Shown here piece after piece: positions 4,502 to 30,453 of a stretch of 36,631 nucleotides of DNA. The first letter of the stretch is position 1; each line of letters opens with the position of its first letter. The notes under the pieces were generated by a model that did not search any database, had not been told where the DNA came from, and saw only the letters and a list, made by a program, of their open reading frames with translations. Source of the stretch: an archaeon (GTDB taxonomy: Archaea > B1Sed10-29 > WALL01 > WAMD01); assembly GCA_024275655.1 (NCBI GenBank), contig JAJRYR010000051.1, positions 1-36,631 on the forward strand, written 5' to 3'. The translations under genes were made by a program, and so were the position numbers.

Positions 4502-5782
4502 TTAAGGGTTAGCCTTTGTCAGTTTGTAGAGTAGGTAGAACAGTTGCCATCTTGTAAACTCTGTGTAGAATCCAAGACCTAGAATGGATAATCCTTTTTT
4601 ATTTACGACATTTATTGTTCTAGAAACCACTCCCTTGATGTCTAATTTTCCATTAACAAACTTTTGGGAGAAGTTTATAGCATCCACCACTGCCCTTAAT
4701 TGGTTTCTTTCAATTATGCTAGAGGAGTAGGAATAGGGCAGACCTAGTCTAGTTTCACCAAACAAGAGACCTTCTTGACCCAGTTTGATTTTTGGCAGTT
4801 TATTCTTCATGACTACTTCTTCATAGGATGGCTTGGTGACCAATTCCTTTCCCAACCTTCTCTTTTTTAGCTCTCCATTGTTGTACATAATCACCGTGTT
4901 TGGGTGGGAACAGCCGTCCAGAATAATTGTGTTTGGATACTCCAGATCTTCTGTTCCGAGTACTGCTCTTAAATCTCCATAACTAGCAAGCCATTCCTCT
5001 CCAGGGGATATCCATGCCAGGTCCCTTATTGTTTTTACAAACGCATACCCTTTCTCTGGTTTATAGTATGCGTATCCCCTAGACAGCATCTCAAGTAATT
5101 CTAGACTTATGTTTGATAGGGATGTTTTTCCCTCTGGAATCAGCATACCCTCAATCCTTCCAGCATTTGGTACTCTGATCCTATCTGGATTGTGAACTCG
5201 TACTTTGATACCATTTATCTCTACTCCAGATCCTATAAACGCTAGATAATTGTTCTCAGCTAGAAATCTTCTGACCTCCATTTGATCCTCAAGGTTTTGC
5301 TTGATTTCTAGAATTCTCTTGTATCTATCCTCATTTAGATTTTTCACTTCCTTAACAAGTTTTGGGAACACTCTCTCAAACGCCCTTGCTAGTGATTTTC
5401 CGTCTATATCTCTTCCCTTTTTTGGGATCCTGAAATGGAATTTTATTTTGATTTTTGTTTTTTCTTTATTGAACTCTATCCCAGATCTAGGGACCAGTGC
5501 AGATGTTGGTCTTTGGAAGTCAATCCAGCTCAATCCTTCTTTTTTTGATTTCTTGTAAAAGAATTGGAGTAAGTAGTGTTCTAGAGCGAGAGTTGTGCCC
5601 TTCCATAGTTCCTCAGGGAATGTGTTTTTGAATATGATGTACCCGACCCCATAGCTTCTTTTTCTCGTTGGGACATTCGTTATTTCTAGTATGTATTCTC
5701 TAAATCCATGAGTTCCCAGTATCTTTCTTATTTTCTCGATTGGCTTCCCATGCAAAAGATGCACTTTCATATCATCCCTCAC
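4502..5782 (-). CDS. degenerate homologue of the 'predicted ATPase of the ABC class' family (PF09818-like), apparently lacking Walker A/B
   Basis: [52 protein letters not shown] and [19 protein letters not shown] resemble recalled family features; no GxxxxGK[ST] at the expected site. Confidence 0.55.
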
Positions 5783-6489
5783 AGATCTCTTATTATCTCG
5801 TTCAATGCTCTCAAAGCATTTTGATAGTTGTATCCTGTTTCTATTTTATCCATTATCTCTTCAAGTTCTCTAGTAAATTCCACACTTACGTAGTCCCTAT
5901 ATCTAGATTGTAGGAATTTATTAACCAATATGCCCTTTTTAGTGGGTATCAAAAATCCAGATTTTGCAATAATATACTTTCTATCTGAAAGAGTTTGAAT
6001 TATCTTTGCATATGTGCTTGGCCTACCAATTCCTTCCTCCTTCATCTTTGTGATTATTTCTCCAAAAGTGTATGGTTTAGCTTTTGGAACCAGTTTTGTT
6101 ACTACCTTCTCTGGTATGTATGTCCCCGGTTTTATTTTTGATTCTTTGATTGGCACATCCAGATCCCATCCATGTTCTAGGACGGTTTCAATTGCAGTTA
6201 CTTCCTTTTCAAGATTTGATAATTTGAATTTGTAATTGACAACCTTTGCTTTTACTGCTCTCATCTGGCTTCTAATGAATCTTCTGAATATCAGTTCGTA
6301 CAGCGCCAGGTGGTCCCTGCTTAAACTAGCTCCTCGCATCGCCAAGAATTGTTTTAACTGCTGAACATCCATGGCTCGGGTGGGCCTTATACACTCATGT
6401 GCCCCTTCCCCCTCTTTGCTCTTCCATCTTCTGGCATGGAAGTATTCCTCTCCAAACTTTTTGGATATATACTCTTTGGCTATTTTCAT
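5779..6489 (-). CDS. rgy: reverse gyrase, C-terminal part of topoisomerase IA module (frame continues upstream to about 6543 in the -1 frame)
   Basis: EGEGAHECIRPTRAMD, MKEEGIGRPSTYAKIIQTLSDRKYI; the upstream in-frame stretch GGFITYHRTDSTRVSNLG contains the catalytic Tyr. Confidence 0.93.
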   Translation of the reverse strand: MKIAKEYISKKFGEEYFHARRWKSKEGEGAHECIRPTRAMDVQQLKQFLAMRGASLSRDHLALYELIFRRFIRSQMRAVKAKVVNYKFKLSNLEKEVTAIETVLEHGWDLDVPIKESKIKPGTYIPEKVVTKLVPKAKPYTFGEIITKMKEEGIGRPSTYAKIIQTLSDRKYIIAKSGFLIPTKKGILVNKFLQSRYRDYVSVEFTRELEEIMDKIETGYNYQNALRALNEIIRDL

Positions 6490-6525
6490 TCCCAGGTTTG
6501 ATACTCTAGTTGAGTCTGTTCTGTG

Positions 6526-6545
6526 GTAGGTTATGAAACCCCCTC
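6526..6545 (-). other. -1 frame junction in reverse gyrase (GAG GGG GTT TCA TAA in frame 0; GGG GGT TTC ATA ACC TAC in the -1 frame)
   Basis: Manual translation of both frames; catalytic Tyr codon at 6528-6526 is only in the -1 frame. Confidence 0.93.
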
Positions 6546-9227
6546 AAATAGGTCTTGTGCTAACTCCATGGTTTTTGTTGAGTCAAATCCTAATTCTTTG
6601 GATGCGTCTCTTAACATCGTGTCAGTTGTGTAAGGAGGCAAGGGATTTATATTATCTATTTTTTCTGACAATACGACCACATTAACTTCTCTAGCCTCAG
6701 AGGGTTTCCCATCGAACTCTATTCTTTCTCCAGCTACCACTATCTCGGTTACCCATTTCTTTTGTTTAGATTCAAACCATCTTTCTATTATCCAGTTTAG
6801 AACGGGGCTTTGAACTCTACCGGCAGATAAATTCCTATTCTTGAAGACCCTCTGAAGAATTTGGCTGAGCTTGAATCCAACCCACCTATCAGCTATCCTT
6901 CTAGTTATTTGGGCGTTTACTCTATTTTCATCTATGTCCCTCATCTCTTTTATTGCGTTTAGAAATGCAGATTTTGTTATCTCGTGAAACTCTATTCTCT
7001 TCGTACTTGCAAATGGTCTCACTGCTAGGGATATATCCCAGGCTATTTTTTCTCCCTCGGTGTCTGGGTCGCTTGCTATCAATACGAGGTTCACTTCCTT
7101 TGCCAGTTCTTGGATGGCTTTTATTGTTGTTTTCTTGTCTATGATATTTTTACTGCCGCATTTTGGGCAGGTTTCCCCCTCAACAAATTGGTACCCACAT
7201 GATCCGCATCTTTTTATTGTGTCGTAAATAGGAATGAACTTGCCAGATTCCTCTATAACTCCGTACAATCCAGGGCTTGTAACGAGGTCGAACACATGCC
7301 CCTGACTCGCCATTATGTTTAGTATGTATTCTCCAGTGTTTATCTCATAAACAGATATGCCATTTACCAACCGCCTCAATGGCTTACCAAAGAAGCTGGC
7401 TATTGTCCTGGCCTTGTTCGGGGATTCCACTATCACACCGGCACTCTTGATGAAAGATTTTATGCTTTTCTTTATTTTTCCTGAGAGCATTTCCGATATT
7501 TCTTTTCTTGTTCTGTCCACTTCTTCTAGTGTTTTTTCTATCAATCTCCAATCGAATGGTCTAAATTGGAAGTCATCTATGAACCAGAAGATTTGCTTTA
7601 TAAGCTTGTTGTAGGCTTTTTTATCATCCACCAGTAGTATTGATAGACCCTTGCTTATACCTCCGCCGTACATTCTTGAAGTCCTTCCACTGGCTTGTAT
7701 GTATCCTGTTACGTCTCCCACCACTAGCTTCAATTCACCATCTATTTCTTTAATTGCTAGATCATCACTGGCTTTTATCTTCTCTAAGAAATCAGGGTTA
7801 CTTAGGAAAGACTGCAGATACTCCTTGGCTTGGTTGATCAACGCAGAAACTTTTGCGAATTTTGGATCTTCCAAAGCCGAAGAGGGTAAAGATTCATACT
7901 TTCTTAACTTGGCTATGAAATAATCTGCCTTGTCGTCCAGGAGGTCTCTTAACATGATAAGTAAGGCCAGCAATTGGCCAGGGCGATTTTCAAGTTTCAG
8001 AGGGAATATGATTTTTGGCACACCAGAGAATATGGCATATCTTATGTGCTGTGGAAGGTCTATTCCTCTTGCTAGGGGGTTTCTGTAACTGGCAATACCT
8101 ACCAAAACCCAGATCTCTCTTTTTTTGAATTGTTCTATTGTTTTCTCATTTATGTGTTCATAATCTGTGGCTGGAACTCCATTTGAATTTAGATACGTCA
8201 CCATTTCATTTACTCCTTCTCTTCCAAGATCTGATGGTAGGAATACTAATCCCCCGGGACCAAGTTTTTTCACCAGATCCAATGTCTCTTTAAATATGTC
8301 CCCACACTCTTCCTTCACGTAGTCATCTATGTTTCTCAACGTGGACACTGTCTTTCCAACTTCGAAATCGAGCAATTCCCTGAAGAGCCTTACTCTCTTA
8401 GATTTTGGTTTTGCTGTTGCTGAGCTGACGATCATTATTCCTGATCTCTTTTCCTTGACCTTTTCTAATTTGCGCTTTAATTTTTCCAATTTCTTTCCCA
8501 CGTCTTTCCCTTGAGCTAGTTGTGCTTTCAACGCTATTATCTCCATGGCCAATTGAATGTCCGGTTCAGAGAAACCTAGCAACATTAGTGCTTTGTCAAT
8601 GTTCTTTGCGCTCTTCAAAAATGAGTCAACGTCATCCACGAATATCAGTGAAAATCTTTTGTCCTTTAGAACATCAAAATTCCTGTACAAGAACATTGTT
8701 GTAGTTATGAGTATGTCAAAGTTTCCACTTTTTATCTCTTCCTTTATTGATTGTTTTTCTTTTTGCTTTAAACTGCCGTGGTATGCCAGTATCCTTTTAT
8801 TGTGAGGAAATGAGCTTAGCTTTTCTAGAGCTTGCTTTACCAGTAGTGTAGTGGGGAATATTAGATATACCCTCCACTCTAAGAAGGTGGATGTAACCAG
8901 CCCAAATGTTGTTTTTCCAATTCCTGTTGGAGCGAGGATTGCAAAGTTTCTCTTTAATAGCACCCTCTTGGTCCATACCTGTTGGAGATTCCATGGGTCT
9001 GATCCCACGCATTCTTTAAACCAGGATTTGAACTCTTCCAATTTCTTGTCTAGTTCGTGTAGCTGGAGAAACTCTCCAGGTCTCTCTAGATTCTTTACTA
9101 TCGTTTCTATATCTAGTTTGCTAGGAATGCTCGGTAGACAATAACTGCAAGGTAGGCCCAGGGCTAGTCTACTATCGCTAATCGGCCCCCAGCAGTTGGG
9201 ACACATCTCTCTAAATATGGCCTTCAT
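6531..9227 (-). CDS. rgy: reverse gyrase, helicase module plus N-terminal part of topoisomerase module
   Basis: N-terminal Zn finger CPNC..CSYC; APTGIGKTT; FVDDVDS; second Zn finger CGSCGYQF..CPKC; Toprim IASDPDTEGEKIAWDI; ends LAQDLFEGVS*. Confidence 0.97.
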   Translation of the reverse strand: MKAIFREMCPNCWGPISDSRLALGLPCSYCLPSIPSKLDIETIVKNLERPGEFLQLHELDKKLEEFKSWFKECVGSDPWNLQQVWTKRVLLKRNFAILAPTGIGKTTFGLVTSTFLEWRVYLIFPTTLLVKQALEKLSSFPHNKRILAYHGSLKQKEKQSIKEEIKSGNFDILITTTMFLYRNFDVLKDKRFSLIFVDDVDSFLKSAKNIDKALMLLGFSEPDIQLAMEIIALKAQLAQGKDVGKKLEKLKRKLEKVKEKRSGIMIVSSATAKPKSKRVRLFRELLDFEVGKTVSTLRNIDDYVKEECGDIFKETLDLVKKLGPGGLVFLPSDLGREGVNEMVTYLNSNGVPATDYEHINEKTIEQFKKREIWVLVGIASYRNPLARGIDLPQHIRYAIFSGVPKIIFPLKLENRPGQLLALLIMLRDLLDDKADYFIAKLRKYESLPSSALEDPKFAKVSALINQAKEYLQSFLSNPDFLEKIKASDDLAIKEIDGELKLVVGDVTGYIQASGRTSRMYGGGISKGLSILLVDDKKAYNKLIKQIFWFIDDFQFRPFDWRLIEKTLEEVDRTRKEISEMLSGKIKKSIKSFIKSAGVIVESPNKARTIASFFGKPLRRLVNGISVYEINTGEYILNIMASQGHVFDLVTSPGLYGVIEESGKFIPIYDTIKRCGSCGYQFVEGETCPKCGSKNIIDKKTTIKAIQELAKEVNLVLIASDPDTEGEKIAWDISLAVRPFASTKRIEFHEITKSAFLNAIKEMRDIDENRVNAQITRRIADRWVGFKLSQILQRVFKNRNLSAGRVQSPVLNWIIERWFESKQKKWVTEIVVAGERIEFDGKPSEAREVNVVVLSEKIDNINPLPPYTTDTMLRDASKELGFDSTKTMELAQDLFEGVS

Positions 9228-29037: not shown

Positions 29038-30453
29038 TTATATCTCCCATATGGCCCTTATACCAGCCATACCCTTTTTCTTGACTAGGTTTGTCAACAT
29101 TCTTTTGTTTTGCCTTTCAAATTTGAATTTTGTTGTTATCGTGTTTGGATCGATGTATCCCCATTTCCTCAATGCCAGTTCAAGTTCCTTGTGGTTCCTT
29201 GCATATTCTGGGGCAGGGACGCCCTCTACCACAGCATCTACTGCTTGTCTCATGGCCTTTGCTCCTGCTAGGGTTCCCTTTGGATGGCCGTGGACACCGC
29301 CTCCAGCTTGTATTATGACATTTTGTCCGTGCAATGCCACTGCTGCATCAACCTTTCCAGGATCCATCCCGCCACTTGCTATACTGAAAAACGGTTTTAT
29401 CTTTTTTATCCATGTTTGCCCTAGGCTTCCTAGGTAGAATTTTTCAGGGATTTTGTACTCCTCTGCAAGTTCATGGAATCTCTTTATTAGGAGCGCTCCA
29501 CCCTCCATCTTTCCCACGCCAGTTCCTATGTGCAGTTGATCAACTCCGATCATTCTCCAGAACCTCTCATATATCGCAAAGTTAACACCGAAGTTCCCCC
29601 TGTGGTGAGCAGCGTAACCTGCTCTATGTGCGTGGATAAACAGCTTTGCCTTCTTTGCTTCTTCTACCATCTTCATCAATGCTGGAATGCCCAGTATGTA
29701 CACATCCAGCATTACCATCTTCATTCCAGAATCCTTGATATAGTCCAATCTTTCCAGCATCCTGTCAATGCTAGAGTCCGTTATATTGGAAGAATAAAGT
29801 TTCCTCTCGCCAGTCTCCTGTTCCGCTTTATCCAGTGCCTTGGCCATCAAATCAAATCTCTTTTTCCATGGGCAGAACTTCTGGTCAATTAGGTTCTCAT
29901 CATCCTTAACTAGATCCAACCCACCGACCCAGGCTTTATAGGCTACGTCTGCGAATTCTTTTGGTGTTAGACCAACTTTTGGTTTAACAATGGTTCCCAC
30001 ATGAGGTCTCTTGGTTTTCTTGGTTCCCATGTACTTTCTAAGACCCTCTAATCCGGCCCCAGGACCTGAAAACTGCTTTTGGTACTTTTCCGGGAACTTT
30101 ACATCCAAGACATAGCATTCTTCCAATTCCTTTAGGCCGAAGAGATTGCCTAGAACACCCGCATAGAACTGCAGGACATTCTTTTGATCAAAGTGCTCCC
30201 AGGGGTAGGCCACAAACACGAATCCAGAGTTTTCAGTGACCTTCACTATTTTGTAAACTCTTGCCCGGTATTCTCTGAAGACCTTTTCATTCATTGTGTG
30301 TATTTTTGTCCAGGTTCCTACACTGGATTCGCTTGCCACCGCCTCTGCCAGTTTCTCAATCTTTGCATGGCCCTCTAACCAGAACAGGACCACGAAGTCA
30401 TCCTTTCCTGGTTTGTATTTTTTGTCCAAATAGGAATACCCACCGTATGCCAT
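29038..30453 (-). CDS. rbcL: ribulose-bisphosphate carboxylase large subunit, archaeal form III or III-like
   Basis: ESSVGTW, TIVKPKVGL, GGLDLVKDDEN (carbamylated Lys), HIGTGVGKMEGG (loop 6), ASGGMDPGK, GGGVHGHPKG. Confidence 0.93.
   Translation of the reverse strand: MAYGGYSYLDKKYKPGKDDFVVLFWLEGHAKIEKLAEAVASESSVGTWTKIHTMNEKVFREYRARVYKIVKVTENSGFVFVAYPWEHFDQKNVLQFYAGVLGNLFGLKELEECYVLDVKFPEKYQKQFSGPGAGLEGLRKYMGTKKTKRPHVGTIVKPKVGLTPKEFADVAYKAWVGGLDLVKDDENLIDQKFCPWKKRFDLMAKALDKAEQETGERKLYSSNITDSSIDRMLERLDYIKDSGMKMVMLDVYILGIPALMKMVEEAKKAKLFIHAHRAGYAAHHRGNFGVNFAIYERFWRMIGVDQLHIGTGVGKMEGGALLIKRFHELAEEYKIPEKFYLGSLGQTWIKKIKPFFSIASGGMDPGKVDAAVALHGQNVIIQAGGGVHGHPKGTLAGAKAMRQAVDAVVEGVPAPEYARNHKELELALRKWGYIDPNTITTKFKFERQNKRMLTNLVKKKGMAGIRAIWEI

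Follow-up and report, generated by a model that had tools for sequence, protein, structure and literature searches.

The gene for reverse gyrase in this archaeal window (the whole 36,631-nucleotide stretch analysed) is split in the deposited sequence by a frame step of -1 shortly before the codon for the catalytic tyrosine. We somewhat favour the explanation that the gene is one base short at a run of G through a sequencing or assembly consensus error; that an error and not a mutation is responsible is what we infer from the pattern of breaks and conservation described below. Overall, the evidence points to an ordinary sequencing or assembly slip or to a very recent mutation; it does not suggest that the gene is read in a novel way. 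The relevant features are as follows.

6531 to 9227, minus strand: reverse gyrase piece 1, 898 amino acids, ending at TAA (TIGR01054 positions 3-913, 1007 bits; Pfam zf_Rg, DEAD, Toprim and Topoisom_bac 2-155).
6539 to 6543, minus strand: GGGGG run with the frame change (from the sequence; alignments with about 80 reverse gyrase ORFs change frame at this run).
6526 to 6528, minus strand: codon TAC of the catalytic tyrosine (from the sequence and the alignment to A. fulgidus reverse gyrase).
5779 to 6537, minus strand: reverse gyrase piece 2, 252 amino acids, FITYHRTDS..., with the catalytic tyrosine (TIGR01054 positions 916-1171, 275 bits; Pfam Topoisom_bac 158-404).
Contig C20 of the same genome, locus L124, 7007 to 7810 and 5916 to 6989, minus strand: XPD/Rad3-type DEAH helicase split into two ORFs (an intact relative of 673 residues shares 58% and 52% identity with the halves; rad3 model).

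In the window sequence, the minus-strand step of -1 lies at GAGGGGGTTTCATAACCTAC. Here the plus strand carries C5, which is the GGGGG of the minus strand, and frame 0 reads GAG GGG GTT TCA TAA. Because frame 0 ends at this TAA (6533-6531) and the -1 frame, open from 6543 onward, has a TGA stop at 6546-6544, the step is confined to the approximately 12 nt around the G-run in which both frames are open. Within this overlap GGG is the sole codon for which slipping back by one base leaves perfect pairing. The -1 frame proceeds through TTC ATA ACC to the tyrosine codon and continues to 5779; between the TGA and the tyrosine codon it contains no ATG, GTG or TTG, and its first ATG is located at 6489, 13 codons beyond the tyrosine. 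A sequence-only reading of the window had put a -1 frame change in GGGGG, with a TGA just upstream in the -1 frame, an overlap of about a dozen bases and no start codon ahead of the tyrosine, and all of these sequence details match ours. Its description of the gene as broken holds for the deposited sequence but is not proven for the organism.

Piece 1 comprises the zinc finger, the helicase-like domain, Toprim and the start of the topoisomerase IA domain, and piece 2 follows in the frame that is -1 relative to it. The order zf_Rg, DEAD, Toprim, Topoisom_bac and the score of piece 1, well above the NCBIfam TIGR01054 cut-off of 471.7 bits, identify the gene as reverse gyrase, and the two pieces meet without loss at model positions 913/916. 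The same full domain order and motifs are found over both pieces as in the reverse gyrases of A. fulgidus (1GKU) and T. maritima (4DDT); the window gene differs from them, in the deposited sequence, by one frame change a few codons before the active-site tyrosine. In the alignment this tyrosine falls on residue 809 of the enzyme from A. fulgidus (1gku/1gl9), the known catalytic tyrosine. As deposited, it does not belong to the chain that carries the helicase and Toprim domains but lies in the -1 frame; should the sequence have lost a base by error, it would be part of that chain. Neither piece is unusual in its codon usage. The following gene overlaps the end of piece 2 at 5779-5782, and the layout of the locus is therefore undisturbed. 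This neighbour (4502-5782) encodes a protein of 426 residues with a weak match to ABC_N (PF20446) and to no other family.

Homologues were collected from named genomes and by a search for kin; their identity is approximately 34-50% over the aligned part, the best reaching about 45-50%, and none is closer than about 46% overall. Alignments of around 80 reverse gyrase ORFs run across both frames, each placing the step at 6540-6543. Judged from the sequences, the split into two pieces of the same family in perfect order, bridged by this many ORFs, exceeds chance. Once three copies of the window itself were excluded, 85 independent loci spanned the break site, none from the same genus, and all 85 pass through it in a single frame. 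The comparison with relatives that had been proposed for the G-run was thus run on distant homologues only, as the genomes examined from the order and phylum offered no close relative and the genome contigs searched contained none above about 46% overall identity, and it found the gene intact in every case and the break in none of the 85. The spacing LFE-x-G-x-x-[TS]Y has a fixed length in nearly all homologues, although the G is not present in every one. Three homologues (L015, L042 and L043) carry an in-frame intein of about 500 residues directly before the active-site segment, exactly between L and C of LFExGL|CTYHRTD. In a FastTree phylogeny of 80-odd homologues, the window reverse gyrase (5779-9227) sits on a long branch and groups with 17 sequences (support 0.999) from genomes labelled mostly as bacterial (WOR-3, Aquificaceae, Hydrogenobaculum, Calescibacterium), while the host genome is archaeal. 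Gene transfer or a long-branch effect could account for this grouping.

The age of the lesion was judged from columns at least 95% invariant among the homologues. The window departs from them at 2 of 52 positions in the helicase part, at 3 of 69 in the topoisomerase part before the break (one of these an alignment gap) and at 1 of 37 behind it; hence, no excess decay is seen in piece 2 compared with these parts of piece 1, and no second lesion was found in the gene. Since the conserved motifs are kept in both halves, any real lesion must be very young. Whatever its cause, the conservation argues that selection on the protein behind the break lasted until very recently or continues today.

The source genome is a 710-kb draft of 73 contigs with an estimated completeness of 87.9% and contamination of 0.92%. 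Contamination by a foreign contig was ruled out by the tetranucleotide profile of the window, whose correlation with the remainder of the genome is 0.975, and by an archaeal ribosomal protein/SecY operon: the window encodes archaeal L3, L4, L2, S3, S5 and SecY, together with Kae1/TsaD, a Bud32-like kinase and a type III-like RuBisCO. The split gene is the only reverse gyrase of the draft, in which no second, intact copy was found at the completeness given above. Proteome composition (IVYWREL, a rough estimate of about 75 °C) and a tRNA G+C content of 0.69 suggest a thermophilic host growing near 75 °C. As this is the only copy in a suggested thermophile, its loss is not expected to be neutral. 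However, the 18 other genomes of the phylum that were examined all lack reverse gyrase, and the gene may be readily lost in this group.

To place the break against the background of the assembly, a 405-kb sample of the genome was compared with the ORFs of three related drafts and with the homologue loci, and antisense shadows were removed. Homology covered 216 kb of this DNA, including about 211 runs of at least five G or C. Two breaks remained, each a single step in the same sense: the reverse gyrase and the XPD/Rad3-type helicase, which is interrupted in a short A/G run and has an intact relative in another genome (G004, L205). Thus, the same assembly holds another single-base break in an otherwise intact gene. 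Only 1 of the approximately 211 covered G/C runs is broken, and 61 runs of six or seven G lie within open frames; the assembly therefore has no systematic homopolymer problem. Older, multiply damaged pseudogenes were not seen in the 216 kb. When the three related drafts were put through the same automatic test, the counts were at most 3 breaks over 243 kb, 1 over 78 kb and 1 over 170 kb, so that the rate of 2 per 216 kb resembles what is ordinary for such drafts. Further frameshift candidates (L148, L120, L146 and window 24746/25500) proved to be antisense shadows or vanished after the queries had been cleared of shadow ORFs.

Programmed -1 ribosomal frameshifting on a real GGGGG, which would yield an excess of the 898-residue helicase-Toprim protein devoid of the tyrosine and a limited amount of full-length active enzyme, was one of three alternatives left by the sequence-only reading, next to error and mutation. 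We regard it as very improbable. The step has the right sense, the overlap is short and GGG re-pairs perfectly. Signals for -1 frameshifting combine a slippery heptamer X_XXY_YYZ, which permits tandem re-pairing, with a stimulatory structure 5-9 nt downstream. In G_GGG_GTT, by contrast, the P-site GGG alone can re-pair, and the Val tRNA in the A site would need to re-pair on GGT; slippage in the P site with an empty A site is formally possible. Four pseudoknot-free folds of the region, one across the run and three starting downstream, were not significant, with stabilities no greater than those of shuffled sequences (z from -0.21 to -0.68). Among 332 long ORFs of the 405-kb sample, G_GGG_GTT recurs in frame at 10 further places and shows no avoidance (11 occurrences against 9.6 expected), unlike the known slippery runs A_AAA_AAA (35 seen, 62.5 expected) and T_TTT_TTT (1 seen, 7.7 expected), which indicates that this genome does not treat G_GGG_GTT as slippery. 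Moreover, a frame arrangement maintained for recoding is absent from all homologues down from the best at about 46% identity. To our knowledge, fucA1 of S. solfataricus is the one established case of -1 frameshifting in an archaeal cellular gene, and the window shares with it the -1 relation, the short overlap and the archaeal origin. One-tRNA slippage in the P site is an accepted -1 route (PMC8211752). The fucA1 gene has A_AAA_AAT together with rare codons and a putative stem-loop (PMC8211752), none of which was found in the window. If recoding were nevertheless true, -1 frameshifting would have a second well-defined example among archaeal cellular genes, and DNA supercoiling would be subject to control at this point. 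Even less credit goes to a scar of homing, i.e. an endonuclease cut with faulty repair or an imprecise loss of an intein that deleted one base. The three inteins mentioned above sit at exactly this place, 4 nt downstream of the G-run; the window, however, has Ile at the +1 position instead of the usual Cys, Ser or Thr and keeps no remnant of an intein. A slip in the homopolymer is the simpler account, and no intein is needed for the second break elsewhere. Least probable of all is a natural two-subunit enzyme as in Nanoarchaeum equitans or Methanopyrus kandleri. Split reverse gyrases are known, also in archaea with small genomes (PMC8185306; PMC3655853), and two genomes (G026 and G048) show a two-place layout with a second piece of 358 residues. 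Like these, the window has two ORFs, but the known subunits are separately translated and have proper ends, whereas piece 2 lacks a start for independent initiation before the tyrosine; in addition, the pieces overlap by about 12 nt at the active site, with neither a linker nor an additional domain, and they join with single-residue precision.

Recoding being unsupported, error and mutation are the two of the three alternatives that fit the intact homologues, the second break and the ordinary break rate. If the polymerase genuinely slipped by one base in the G-run very recently, whether the change is now fixed or still polymorphic, reverse gyrase would be inactivated or would keep trace activity through unprogrammed slippage; this explanation has a substantial though lesser claim. 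Short homopolymers are natural indel sites that are sometimes bypassed at low level (PMC3812077). T. thermophilus HB27 harbours a natural, truncated reverse gyrase pseudogene (PMC1274311), and in T. kodakarensis the enzyme is dispensable, its loss lowering the upper growth temperature (PMC12713403); by analogy with these two cases a genuine lesion is quite possible. The absence of the gene from the 18 other genomes of the phylum and an estimated growth temperature of only about 75 °C agree with this. In P. furiosus, a chitinase gene is split by one inserted base (PMC3575233). The HB27 gene and the chitinase gene resemble the window gene in being intact in relatives and broken in one genome, the latter likewise by one nucleotide; in contrast, the HB27 gene is truncated, and both cases come from cultured strains, while the window stems from a draft metagenome assembly. 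If real, the lesion would represent a freshly frame-broken gene of a known kind. It is countered by the lack of a second lesion and of relaxed conserved positions behind the break, and by the other single-step break in an assembly whose covered DNA holds no older, multiply damaged genes.

The low error rate and the lack of a systematic homopolymer problem speak against a consensus error. Nonetheless, we rank it above a real recent slip as the most likely explanation, because both breaks are single steps, genes with several lesions are missing from the covered DNA and the protein behind the break is fully conserved; the missing multi-lesion pseudogenes suit consensus errors better than natural decay. 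Accepting a consensus error of the metagenome-assembled draft, the organism would carry one continuous ORF of about 1150 codons. A gene used as a marker of thermophily can thus look dead in a draft genome through one base, and the same caution applies to the second helicase hit.

Two further observations concern the remainder of the window. An ORF open at the edge (1-1077) has a match to O-phosphoserine--tRNA ligase over the C-terminal two thirds of that enzyme (sepS; its 105 bits fall short of the cut-off of 380), and the RuBisCO large chain at 29038-30453 has type III as its nearest equivalog (443 bits, below the cut-off of 497).
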